From Bdellovibrio sp. GT3 (lineage in GTDB: Bacteria; Bdellovibrionota; Bdellovibrionia; Bdellovibrionales; Bdellovibrionaceae), in the NCBI RefSeq assembly GCF_037996765.1, contig NZ_JBBNAD010000005.1, positions 1,210,001 through 1,274,000 of the forward strand: a stretch of DNA of 64,000 nucleotides, written 5' to 3'. The first letter of the stretch is position 1, and the number at the start of each line of letters is the position of its first letter. This document shows, one piece after another, positions 54,925 through 62,237 of this stretch. A program made the translations under genes and the position numbers. Below the pieces are notes generated by a model. The model made no database searches and had not been told where the DNA came from. It worked only from the letters and a program-made list of their open reading frames with translations.

Positions 54925-55003
54925 GATTCTCCTCACCTTTTTGGAGGAGCAAGATCATTGCCAATAAGTCATATGTGATTTCGGTATCTTAGAGCTGAAT
55001 TCG

Positions 55004-55081
55004 CTGTCTCAAACTGAGACAGACGGAGTTGGTGACGTAAAGTGTCCTGTCCCTGACAGAATCAGAACACTTAACGTTAAG
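55004..55081. repeat. Cluster of nested inverted repeats upstream of the lytic-transglycosylase-like gene
   Basis: CTGTCTCA (55004-55011) pairs with TGAGACAG (55015-55022) around three bases. ACGTAAAGTGT (55035-55045) pairs with ACACTTAACGT (55067-55077) with one mismatch, enclosing CTGTC/GACAG (55047-55059). CTTAACGTTAAG (55070-55081) is a perfect 12-base palindrome. The region lies between the methyltransferase stop and the next gene start, so it could be a terminator, an operator or a small structured RNA. Confidence 0.5.
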
Positions 55082-55095
55082 AGTGCGAATGATAT

Positions 55096-56562
55096 TTACT
55101 TTTGAATAACGATGAAAAGATTCACGCCCAGAGGCTCTTTTTCCACCCACATTTTCGAACCGAGGCCATCGAAGACGCGAAGCAAGTCAGTCTCTGTACG
55201 GTAAATCAAATGCCAATCAAGAAACAGCTCCAGGAAGGGACCGTATTTGTAGTTTTCCGCGCAGAAGTTTCCGATGATGATTTTTCCGCCAGGTTTTACA
55301 GCATCCAGCATGCGCTCAGCAGTTCGGCGCGCAATAGGTTCTGTAAAGTAGTCAAACAAACCTGCAGTGTATATCAGATCATAGTCTTTCTGCGGGAACC
55401 CCTGGGAAATGATGTTCTTGATCGCCAGATTGGAAAACTTGAAGCCGAATCCCGACTGAACTTTGCGATCAATGGTATTAAGTTGGCGGTGAGCATGCTT
55501 CAAGGATTCTTCATCCTGATCGACACATGTAAATTCAGCATGGCGGTCCAAAAATTCAGGACAGTTTTGTAAAAAGATCTGCTGCTCTTTTGCAGGACCG
55601 CTGGCGATGGACATGATTTTCAAATTCTGTTCTGCCGAAGTGTCCTGGAAAAGTTCACGAATCTTTTTTGCCAGATATTGACTGCGGTTACGGACAGCGG
55701 TTCCGGATGCGTCTTCCACGAAGTACTTGTGAATGCATTGATCGTACAACGTTTTGCCTACGACCTCGTCGCGGTAAAGCTGATTCATCATTTCGTAGTC
55801 ACCGGCATAACCACGCGGCTTGTGGTAGGCACGATGAGCGAACGGAGCGCCCCACAGTAGCGGTCCCATTTGCTCACGGGCAAAGTTCATGGCCCATTTC
55901 AGCTGGAATTTGCTCATGCCTTTCAAAAGACCGGGAATAAGCGGGTAGCTGGGGCTCAGTGCCGAGTTCATATACTTGGCAAAGGCCTCAGCCACGGCTT
56001 TACGGAATTCCATTTCCTTGTGGAAGTCGTGAAGGGGTTTGCTTTCTTCAATCCGGTCGATGCGAGGTTTTAAGTTGGCCAGGAAATCACGCAGCTCATA
56101 GATGAAAACTTTGAACTCCACCGGCAGTTGGGCCACCGCATGGGAGTAATTGTTTTGTTCTTCCATGGCCAGATGGGCCGCTTCGTGAGCTTTGATCAGC
56201 TCGACGTTCAAAGGTTCGTTCATGATGTCCAGACCGATAATGATCTCGCCGTTTTTTGAGTCAGCCAGGCGCTCTGACTGGGTCCAACGAACCTGCAGGG
56301 ATTGCAGGTGAGAGTCCTTGAAGTGAACGGCTCCGGATGTGGAGAGGTTCGCTTTGATGAGCTCTTGCACCATGGGAAGTTCTTCGGGTGTCACGACAAT
56401 GGAGCAGCCAAAGATGCTTACGTCGTGAAGGGGGGCTCTGAATTTTTCAAAGTTAAGGAAAAAGGATTGTGGTGTCAGAAGGCTGCGGTCCTGTCTGATG
56501 GATCGCAGTTGTGCGTTCTTATCGACGCTGAAGTTCTCTTGTTGTAATGCCGACTCGCCCAT
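55096..56562 (-). CDS. PilZ-type / HExxH-motif / SAM-methyltransferase fusion (PhcB-like C-terminus)
   Basis: This protein has 488 residues from ATG 56562 (GAGAGGAA upstream). Residues about 20-115 look like PilZ: RSIRQDR, LHDVSIFG (D-x-S-x-x-G) and QVRWTQSE ending in IGLDIMNEP. Residues 126-130 are HEAAH in KAHEAAHLAMEE, a zinc-metallopeptidase-type motif, with later helices holding EAFAKYM. The middle has GYAGDYEMMN. The methyltransferase part starts with IMSIASGP (SAM loop, about 316) and runs through FTCVDQD, YDLIYTAGLFDYF and KPGGKIIIGNF. The GYAGDYEMMN plus methyltransferase arrangement recalls PhcB-like enzymes that make fatty-acid methyl esters, as I remember them. No signal peptide. 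Confidence 0.75.
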   Translation of the reverse strand: MGESALQQENFSVDKNAQLRSIRQDRSLLTPQSFFLNFEKFRAPLHDVSIFGCSIVVTPEELPMVQELIKANLSTSGAVHFKDSHLQSLQVRWTQSERLADSKNGEIIIGLDIMNEPLNVELIKAHEAAHLAMEEQNNYSHAVAQLPVEFKVFIYELRDFLANLKPRIDRIEESKPLHDFHKEMEFRKAVAEAFAKYMNSALSPSYPLIPGLLKGMSKFQLKWAMNFAREQMGPLLWGAPFAHRAYHKPRGYAGDYEMMNQLYRDEVVGKTLYDQCIHKYFVEDASGTAVRNRSQYLAKKIRELFQDTSAEQNLKIMSIASGPAKEQQIFLQNCPEFLDRHAEFTCVDQDEESLKHAHRQLNTIDRKVQSGFGFKFSNLAIKNIISQGFPQKDYDLIYTAGLFDYFTEPIARRTAERMLDAVKPGGKIIIGNFCAENYKYGPFLELFLDWHLIYRTETDLLRVFDGLGSKMWVEKEPLGVNLFIVIQK

Positions 56563-56689
56563 GAAAGTTCCTCTCGGTAAGACATTGATAGCTTCAATTA
56601 TCTTTGAGGAATAAACGGAAAACCAATTAGTCCCGTTGTTGGGCAGCAAACTCTGGACGTAAATCTATTATTGATTTGTATGAGGGAAT

Positions 56690-56717
56690 AAAAAAAAGCC
56701 CGCTGGATGCGGGCTTT
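56690..56717 (-). terminator. Rho-independent terminator of the desaturase gene
   Basis: GCCCGC (56698-56703) and GCGGGC (56709-56714) with AAA/TTT extensions form the stem around TGGAT, with eight A on the left giving a T-run on the minus strand. It ends the desaturase gene and precedes the methyltransferase gene, so the two are likely separate transcripts. Confidence 0.85.
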
Positions 56718-59692: not shown

Positions 59693-62095
59693 TTATAGCT
59701 CCGGTTCTGCGCCTCCTGATTTGTATTCACTTGGTGGAGTCTTTTCCGTAGATGTTGTTTTCTTTTGCGTGGCAGCTTCAGGTTTCAGTTCAATGGTTAC
59801 CTTTTCTATTTTACCGGTGAATTTAAAAGGCAATTCGTAAGTGAAATCAATCGGTGAGCCAGAGTCCATTCCAACATCAAGTCCTTCAATGATGGACATC
59901 TTAAGGGGAATCGTCTTCTCAAGACGGCCTTCAACAAGTGATTCGCCGTTACAGCTCATTTTAAGTTTGCCGCCCTTTCCAAGTCCTCCGCCATCATAAG
60001 TGAATTCAACGGTTAGAACTGACTTGCCTTTTGGAAGACTCTTTTTGGAAGTGAAAGTAGGTCTCTCCAGGGACAGGAAGTTATAAACGAACGAAGGCTT
60101 CCCATTTCGGAGATAGAGTCCGTAACCACCACCGTTACCACCGTGAGTGATGATCATTCCGTTGGCGTTCTCGTCTGGTAAATCCACGGCAGCGGAAATC
60201 ACCCATGATTTATTCAGAATGGATGGAGCTGAACTGTCTGGTAGGCCAACCATGCCTTCAAAATATTCAATTTTAGTGCGACCTTGAGTTAAGCTCGGGC
60301 GTCCCATAAGTTCATCGCTTAAACGTACAGTGCCTCGCCAATCCAGAGGCAAGACTTGATATTTAGCGGCCTCAACCCACCACAAATCCTGTAGTTCCCG
60401 CAGCTTTTCCGGATGCTTTTGGCTAAGATCATTCGCCTGGGAAAAATCCTCGGTAATGTTATAGAGCTCCCATTTCGCTTTGTCTGGATTGAAATCTTTC
60501 TCGTTGCGGTTTGCTTCCCAAGGTACGAAAGACGGGGAGGAAGCCATCCAACCATTGTGATACAAGCCGCGATTGACGGCCAATTCAAAGTACTGGGTTT
60601 TTCTTTTTGATTCAGCTTTTGCATCTTCGAAGGTGAATGCGAAGCTGATACCCTCGATGGGTTTTTGCTGAATTCCGTTTAGCAAGGCTGGCGGTGTGAT
60701 ACCGCAAGCTTCATAGATGGTTGGCGCAATATCAATGACATGCAGGAACTGATTTCTTAATCCGCCTTTATCTTTGATTTTCTCCGGCCACGAAATGACC
60801 ATCGGATTTCTGGTTCCACCGAAATGACTTGCAACTTGCTTGGTCCATTGAAATGGAGTGTTCATCGCATGTGCCCAGGATGATGGGAAGTGATTGAAGT
60901 GTTTCGGACCACCTAACTCATCGATGGCTTTTAAATTGTCCTCCCACTTTTCGGAAAGGCCATTGAAAAAGACATTTTCATTGAGGGAGCCTTCAAGTCC
61001 GCCTTCGGCGCTGGAGCCATTGTCCCCCAGTATATAGATAATCATCGTGTTGTCAGCGTCTGGAAGCTGTTTTACGGCGTCGATAATTTTACCCATCTCG
61101 TGATCGCAGTGCGCTCCGTAAGCTGCGAAAACCTCCATCATGCGACTGTACAGTCGCTGTTGATCTGCATTCAGTGAATCCCAGGCCGGCAGCCCACGAG
61201 AGCGTTCAGTCAGCTTCGTATCCGCAGGAACAACACCCAGTTTTTTTTGCCGATCCAGTGTCTGCTCGCGATATTTGTCCCAACCCATATCAAATTTGCC
61301 TTTGAATTTTTCAATCCAATCTTTGGGGGTGTGATGGGGAGCATGAGTGGCTCCAGGTGCCACATACAAAAAATAGGGACGATCAGGTGCAATGGATTTA
61401 GCCTTATGCACCCATGTGATGGCCTTCTCTGCGAGATCAGAAGTCAGATGATAATCTGGATCTGGAGAGCGAGGTACCAGCTTGTGGTCTTCATAGAGAA
61501 CGGGATTCCAATGGTCCATGTCTCCGCCATTAAATCCGTAAAAGTAGTCAAAGCCCAATCCATTCGCCCATCGATCAAAGGGTCCCACGGCGCTTGTTTC
61601 CCACGTGGGCGTATTGTGGTTTTTACCAATCCAGGCAGTCATGTAGCCATTTTGACGAAGGACCTCTCCGACGGTGCCGCAGCTCTTTGGAAGTATGCAG
61701 GTATACCCGTCGTATCCAGTTGCTGCTTCAGTAATACCTGCAAAAGTTGCGGAGTGATGATTGCGGCCCGTGATCAAAGCGGCACGGGTGGGACTGCAAA
61801 GGGCTGTGGTGTGAAAGGTGTTGTAGCGAAGTCCTTCGGCCGCAAGTTTATCGACTGTGGGTGAAGGTACACCGCCGCCAAAGGTGCTGAATTGACCAAA
61901 CCCCGTATCATCCAAAAGAATCAAAACGATGTTGGGGGCGCCTGCCGGTGCGGCTACCGGTTGGGGGAACTCTGCAGGATCGGAATCAAATACGGTACGT
62001 CCCACACTTCCAGAAAAGTGAAAATCATCACGGGGTAAAATCTTGGGAGTTGGGGAAGATGGCTCATTATTTGACTTTGAATCTTTAGGCTTCAC
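59693..62095 (-). CDS. Large type-I sulfatase (arylsulfatase-like)
   Basis: This protein has about 800 residues from GTG 62095, which has GGAGG five bases upstream; a longer frame to 62122 is less likely. The N-terminal sulfatase domain has VLILLDDTGFGQFSTFGG (metal-binding Asp pair) and ALCSPTRAALITGRNHH, where the Cys of CSPTR is the residue converted to formylglycine. YILGDNGSSAEGG supplies further metal ligands. The C-terminal 200 residues form a beta-rich domain. No signal peptide is seen, as in the cytosolic Pseudomonas AtsA. No formylglycine-generating enzyme gene lies in the window. Confidence 0.9.
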   Translation of the reverse strand: MKPKDSKSNNEPSSPTPKILPRDDFHFSGSVGRTVFDSDPAEFPQPVAAPAGAPNIVLILLDDTGFGQFSTFGGGVPSPTVDKLAAEGLRYNTFHTTALCSPTRAALITGRNHHSATFAGITEAATGYDGYTCILPKSCGTVGEVLRQNGYMTAWIGKNHNTPTWETSAVGPFDRWANGLGFDYFYGFNGGDMDHWNPVLYEDHKLVPRSPDPDYHLTSDLAEKAITWVHKAKSIAPDRPYFLYVAPGATHAPHHTPKDWIEKFKGKFDMGWDKYREQTLDRQKKLGVVPADTKLTERSRGLPAWDSLNADQQRLYSRMMEVFAAYGAHCDHEMGKIIDAVKQLPDADNTMIIYILGDNGSSAEGGLEGSLNENVFFNGLSEKWEDNLKAIDELGGPKHFNHFPSSWAHAMNTPFQWTKQVASHFGGTRNPMVISWPEKIKDKGGLRNQFLHVIDIAPTIYEACGITPPALLNGIQQKPIEGISFAFTFEDAKAESKRKTQYFELAVNRGLYHNGWMASSPSFVPWEANRNEKDFNPDKAKWELYNITEDFSQANDLSQKHPEKLRELQDLWWVEAAKYQVLPLDWRGTVRLSDELMGRPSLTQGRTKIEYFEGMVGLPDSSAPSILNKSWVISAAVDLPDENANGMIITHGGNGGGYGLYLRNGKPSFVYNFLSLERPTFTSKKSLPKGKSVLTVEFTYDGGGLGKGGKLKMSCNGESLVEGRLEKTIPLKMSIIEGLDVGMDSGSPIDFTYELPFKFTGKIEKVTIELKPEAATQKKTTSTEKTPPSEYKSGGAEPEL

Positions 62096-62237
62096 AAAGA
62101 CCTCCAGTACGAAGCAAAGCATCTCGCAATCAAAATAAATTTAAATAGGAGGCAGATATAGCAGCAACGCAATATTCAAAGATTTGTGAGGACTCAAGCG
62201 AGGACTGACTTTCACCCAGTGAGAGGTGACAGAGACT

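Follow-up and report, generated by a model that had tools for sequence, protein, structure and literature searches.

The 3-hydroxy fatty-acid methyl esters of Ralstonia are products of the methyltransferase PhcB (PMC10576176, PMC10653808), and the distribution of the phc gene cluster is restricted in the Betaproteobacteria (PMC10653808). For cyclases, a functional CAI-1-responsive enzyme was engineered by fusing the six-transmembrane (six-TM) domain of CqsS to Rv1625c; this chimera suggested that the six-TM anchors of class III cyclases may be receptors, and the cluster map of the same study places the origin of CqsS-type six-TM domains in histidine kinases (PMC4821796). The ligands of these anchors have long been unknown. 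In MapZ-CheR1 a PilZ domain regulates a SAM-methyltransferase (PMC6370697), and Bd1971 of Bdellovibrio is a cAMP-gated c-di-GMP phosphodiesterase (PMC6717892).

Here we describe a gene from a 64,000-nt stretch of DNA of Bdellovibrio sp. GT3 (hereafter the window) that encodes a PilZ-methyltransferase, a putative signal synthase of the PhcB type. With the Phc quorum-sensing system of Ralstonia, Cupriavidus and Paraburkholderia, the gene and its counterparts in related bacteria share a homologous methyltransferase and linker, and the counterparts also a homologous six-TM sensor encoded alongside. In contrast to that system, the synthase carries a PilZ domain, the receptor output in the relatives is a nucleotide cyclase rather than a histidine kinase, and neither phcR nor phcQ was seen beside the synthase gene; the window holds no receptor gene at all. 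The relatives resemble the CqsS-Rv1625c chimera in having a six-TM domain of the quorum-receptor type directly on a class III cyclase. The chimera, however, was built in the laboratory and responds to an alpha-hydroxyketone, whereas the fusion described here is natural and adjoins a putative synthase gene. MapZ-CheR1 acts in trans on chemoreceptors, whereas PilZ domain and methyltransferase are one chain here. Bd1971 is a separate protein without a methyltransferase, but it represents a link from cAMP to c-di-GMP in Bdellovibrio that the receptor-cyclase could feed.

The individual parts are thus of known kinds; their combination was not found described. The literature searched, which covered few subscription journals, contained neither a quorum-sensing system of such a kind for predatory Bdellovibrio nor the combination of a PilZ-fused PhcB-type synthase, a natural PhcS-type receptor-cyclase and a recurrence with three outputs.

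Architecture of the putative synthase

The gene is located on the minus strand at 55096–56562, in the single open frame of the preliminary description, with the ATG at 56562 and the stop codon at 55096–55098, and encodes 488 residues. A Shine-Dalgarno-like GAGAGGA precedes the ATG by about 8 nt. An upstream TTG start (517 residues) was ruled out, since homology and the Shine-Dalgarno-like site favour the ATG. A search of related genomes for the same fusion recovered homologues of equal length and with the same succession of parts from 15 of the 24 genomes that represent the genus and, at the level of the order, from 34 of 141 genomes. Hence, the reading frame is real and not a product of chance. 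The preliminary description had read the protein as a fusion of a PilZ-like domain, a metallopeptidase and a PhcB-like methyltransferase. The two outer parts stand, but the middle part is a helical linker.

The N-terminal domain (residues ~20–118, 56209–56505, minus strand) is predicted to be a PilZ beta-barrel. In the full-length model (pLDDT 77) six strands and a helix extend across residues 31–144 (strands 31–36, 41–48, 52–57, 75–81, 86–98 and 107–113, helix 120–144), followed by two further long helices to ~205, several shorter ones and a class I methyltransferase. The N-terminal part folded alone reached only modest confidence (pLDDT 64.5). VIA alignment of this model to solved structures gave the PilZ domain of YcgR (5y6g, Z 10.1), MrkH (9.6) and Alg44 (8.7); almost all of the top rows are PilZ proteins, and the MapZ-CheR1 structures (5xly, probably 5y4r) are among the matches. 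Foldseek agreed in order, albeit with weak E-values, and listed PilZ c-di-GMP proteins in all of its top nine rows. Pfam did not call PilZ in the window protein itself, but did so in two homologues with this architecture (L037 and L038; 8.2e-9 and 1.3e-7, 36.2 and 32.3 bits at a cut-off of 22.5). A family profile from which the Pfam-positive homologues had been removed gave no significant match to the PilZ proteins of the window genome (best E 0.014). Apart from the synthase, this genome contains 13 PilZ matches above the Pfam cut-off. Taken by computation, the models and profile matches identify the domain as a PilZ fold.

The residues D47-V-S-I-F-G52, on which the PilZ-like N-terminus had originally been proposed, correspond to the PilZ motif (D/N)xSxxG and lie inside the predicted fold. 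The arginine motif, RQDR at 23–26, has the form RxxR and is one residue short of the textbook RxxxR. RQDR and (D/N)x(S/N/A/T)xFG are retained in nearly all family members. Owing to the shortened spacing, we regard binding of c-di-GMP by this domain as likely rather than certain.

The helical linker (residues 119–235, 55858–56208, minus strand) is, according to the profile alignment and the model, largely common to a PhcB-like protein of Paraburkholderia. It leads into a class I SAM-methyltransferase (residues ~236–488, 55099–55857, minus strand) with the segments KPRGYAGDYEMMN (248–260), SGPA (321–324), DQD (348–350) and AGLFDY (400–405). The GYAGDYEMMN from which a SAM-binding C-terminus had been deduced begins at G251 in this region, and a fold search returned the class I fold with resemblance to many small-molecule methyltransferases, in agreement with the deduction. 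Pfam was less specific for this part: generic SAM-methyltransferase families matched just below the threshold and CheR weakly.

The assignment to the PhcB type was supported by profile alignment. With hhalign the family aligned to the Paraburkholderia PhcB-like protein with a probability of 100 and an E-value of 3.5e-43 over residues 145–486 (337 columns), which spans most of the linker and the entire catalytic part; BLASTP gave 29% over 265. Computationally, linker and methyltransferase are thus homologous to this protein. Among the annotated relatives this protein, from Paraburkholderia graminis, is the closest one whose gene context is informative: in its operon the methyltransferase gene is joined by genes for a histidine kinase and for two response regulators, which is the gene content of phcBSRQ (PMC6989110, PMC10653808). 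No significant PilZ match was obtained by sequence profile in its N-terminus. In Ralstonia PhcB the exchange R22C, located outside the methyltransferase domain, reduces the signal output (PMC6989110); a functionally important N-terminal region is therefore known there, too. A KPRGYAGD methyltransferase was also found on a conjugative plasmid of Enterobacter ludwigii (L054:5625-8762), where it forms the end of a polyketide synthase. Its position behind an apparent acyl-carrier domain would fit an acyl substrate. For the window protein a fatty-acid methyl ester is a conceivable product, to which we assign slightly less than an even chance. As far as can be judged from sequence, the best reading is still the one proposed, a lipid-signal enzyme under the control of c-di-GMP, with c-di-GMP binding and a methyl-ester product as its presumed elements.

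Receptor-cyclase genes in relatives and their outputs

In 28 of the 32 Bdellovibrionota loci that were fetched, a receptor-cyclase gene lies directly 3' of the synthase gene, at distances that are mostly between -11 and +36 nt and usually 0–20 nt. At two more loci only the sensor part is present, and one of these is truncated by the end of its contig. More distant Bdellovibrionota loci show the same pair, in two cases with a gene for a cyclic-nucleotide-binding protein alongside. Within the 24 genomes of the genus, the two genes occur together in 14 (in one of these the receptor is sensor-only), neither is present in nine, and a synthase alone occurs once, in the window genome. In the genus member G012 the receptor gene is cut down to the six-TM sensor part of 204 residues (L067:7376-7987).

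In the partner protein a hydrophobic N-terminal six-TM domain is followed by a class III nucleotide cyclase, and a Cys-rich ribbon forms the C-terminus. Pfam Guanylate_cyc matched with 2.6e-9 to 2.8e-14. Both metal-binding Asp residues are present in 28 of 29 proteins, and Lys/Thr at the base-selecting positions indicates class IIIb in most of them. The transition-state Asn is kept in most members from outside Bdellovibrio and replaced in a few, whereas the genus Bdellovibrio has Pro (Arg in one copy) at this position. Consequently, production of cAMP in this genus is uncertain. The membrane part of the cyclase gave no match to Pfam MASE8 at E <= 0.1, and the PhcS-like kinase only a sub-threshold one. 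By its position, bd3072 of strain HD100 is presumably the receptor-cyclase described here. HD100 has four annotated cyclases, bd3072 among them (PMC6717892).

The same six-TM domain occurs in further arrangements. A Bdellovibrionota protein of 879 residues (L105:5214-7850) combines it with a histidine kinase, a receiver and a class III cyclase, and a six-TM histidine kinase is encoded at L106:5891-7165. Several genomes of the phylum encode a shorter cyclase (~430-440 residues) with this domain and no synthase neighbour (L097-L101).

Alignment of the six-TM part of the receptor-cyclases to the transmembrane region of the PhcS-like kinase from Paraburkholderia gave an E-value of 4.6e-13 over 173 columns, while the best value among shuffled and reversed controls was 0.047. 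When 107 multi-TM proteins from all fetched loci were ranked, the six-TM receptors stood above all others (best unrelated E 0.041). Six-TM receptors beside such methyltransferases carry a GGDEF-EAL output in rhizobia and a histidine kinase in a cyanobacterium. As an alignment, the rhizobial receptors matched the Bdellovibrionota six-TM domain with 3.9e-10; two single sequences matched weakly (0.0004 and 0.0015). The rhizobial alignment gave no significant match when compared directly with the PhcS-like sequence (0.033), hence the link between rhizobia and PhcS goes via the Bdellovibrionota receptors. On rhizobial-type plasmids the six-TM GGDEF-EAL gene is divergent from and adjacent to the gene of a PhcB-like methyltransferase (L088:3460-5481, L091:3280-5271, L056:3462-5519, L107:2022-4097, L109:2133-4208, L110:2004-4079 and L112:1911-3977). 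One of ten rhizobial-type loci, from Aureimonas, has no six-TM neighbour. Possibly the rhizobial plasmid pair connects a lipid signal to c-di-GMP.

On this basis we tentatively propose, at somewhat worse than even odds, that PhcB-type and PhcS-type proteins constitute a widespread modular form of cell-cell signalling whose outputs were swapped by lineage and whose synthase is gated by c-di-GMP in the Bdellovibrionota. The exchanged outputs would be a histidine kinase in Betaproteobacteria and the cyanobacterium, a class III nucleotide cyclase in Bdellovibrionota and GGDEF-EAL in rhizobia. If so, a quorum-gated cyclase would exist naturally in predatory bacteria, and a loop would connect cAMP, c-di-GMP and a lipid signal.

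Proposed signalling pair and alternative explanations

We propose, with a probability of about two in three, that the gene provides the synthase of a synthase-receptor signalling pair of the PhcB/PhcS type. The PilZ domain, probably by binding c-di-GMP, would gate the SAM-dependent methyltransferase, which most likely methylates an acyl (fatty-acid-like) substrate and thereby yields a small, membrane-permeant, lipid-like ester signal. In most Bdellovibrionota carriers the presumed receptor is the product of the next gene, in which a six-TM domain resembling that of PhcS is joined to a class IIIb cyclase; because of this fusion cAMP would be the readout of the signal. Two second messengers would be coupled to a lipid signal in such a system. 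Since the putative ligand-making enzyme is an operon neighbour of a six-TM anchor, the ligand of this anchor can be sought directly. Gene adjacency, co-occurrence, the six-TM homology and the absence of the partner from the window genome were all found by computation. Adjacency and co-occurrence do not prove that ligand and receptor match, and we infer this match as well as the cyclase activity with its second-messenger output.

It is conceivable that the methyltransferase makes no diffusible signal but modifies a membrane lipid, a protein or a metabolite, and that the six-TM cyclase is regulated within the same cell. The tight and conserved gene pair would fit this, as would the likeness of the fold to CheR (weak in Pfam) and to many small-molecule methyltransferases, and MapZ-CheR1 is an example of PilZ-regulated protein methylation (PMC6370697). 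However, the receptor domain matches the PhcS-like kinase and the catalytic part matches the PhcB-like protein encoded next to that kinase. Moreover, the pairing of synthase and six-TM protein recurs with three different outputs, which is expected of a ligand-receptor module, and we consider a purely intracellular role improbable. The proposed synthase could also carry a degenerate PilZ barrel that has lost c-di-GMP binding and mediates only dimerisation or partner contact. Besides the RxxR spacing, the motif Ser, for which several homologues have N, A or T, and one homologue with YQDR and SLSCFE point in this direction. R26, however, is invariant in the family and R23, Q24, D25, F51 and G52 are nearly so, within a domain whose remainder is the fastest-evolving part in most pairs. 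Conservation of the motif residues against this background suggests that a ligand site was kept, so that a loss of binding appears fairly unlikely. Finally, HEAAH is indeed present at residues 126–130 (56173–56187, minus strand) and would have to form a zinc metallopeptidase centre together with a downstream Glu. Of 33 homologues, just 3 have these five letters, namely the window copy and two of its sisters; a further sister has NEAAH, and the other 29 have LEVSS, LQATT, IRDSI and similar sequences. The motif is thus no conserved feature, it lies within the helix behind the PilZ barrel, and Pfam found no peptidase family in the window protein. Because of the helix position and the lack of conservation a zinc site is extremely improbable, and we rejected a metallopeptidase in favour of a chance motif in a helical region, as the preliminary description had already considered.

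The proposed signalling pair also has to accommodate the solitary copy in the window. Where relatives have the receptor-cyclase gene, the window shows a 159-nt gap (54937–55095, no strand), in which no remnant of the receptor was detected. A six-TM receptor was likewise found nowhere in the window genome, by a search with the sensor domain alone that did find its positive controls. Judging from these comparisons, the receptor gene appears to have been lost in the window lineage while the synthase was kept. Its product presumably serves other cells, acts on an unrelated receptor, or derives from a changed substrate. Three other genomes have such orphan copies (the surroundings were read for the window, G011 and G014; G016 follows from gene searches). 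In the tree the four orphans form one clade with a support of 100/100 on a stem of 0.91 changes per column, compared with 0.02–0.09 for nearby branches. The window copy may therefore have taken on a new use once the receptor was gone, remaining a methyltransferase but with a changed substrate or role, which would be compatible with the proposed signalling at the family level. In line with this, the window protein has an inserted Y plus K (438–439) in place of a Pro that is invariant elsewhere, this position is changed in all four orphans, and, of the conserved PilZ residues, N47 has become D and R95 has become Q. The long stem was followed by strong conservation: pairwise dN/dS in the clade is 0.025–0.034, close to the paired copies, with dS saturated in most pairs, and the window synthase appears to be under strong purifying selection. 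On the other hand, the window protein retains every family-invariant column, including KP-x-GY-x-GD, the SAM-binding and the AGLFDY residues, the fixed differences are mostly conservative, and the three other orphan-bearing genomes also hold a second, paired synthase copy. Taken together, low dN/dS, intact invariant residues and the changed Pro position argue for a gene under constraint, perhaps with an altered role; a genuine repurposing we consider possible but rather unlikely.

Neighbouring features in the window

A fatty-acid desaturase gene next to the synthase gene had been connected with lipid-signal synthesis. Both genes are transcribed in the same direction, and a terminator-like hairpin with a T run, GCCCGC-atcca-GCGGGC-TTTTTTT, is located between them (56688–56711, minus strand; approximate coordinates, read from the sequence and not scanned). 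Since this hairpin separates the genes and their adjacency is limited to the syntenic block of the genus, the desaturase was rejected as too weak a candidate for a functional partner. At 59693–62122 an 809-residue sulfatase-like open reading frame, absent from the compared syntenic loci, interrupts the gene order common to the relatives.
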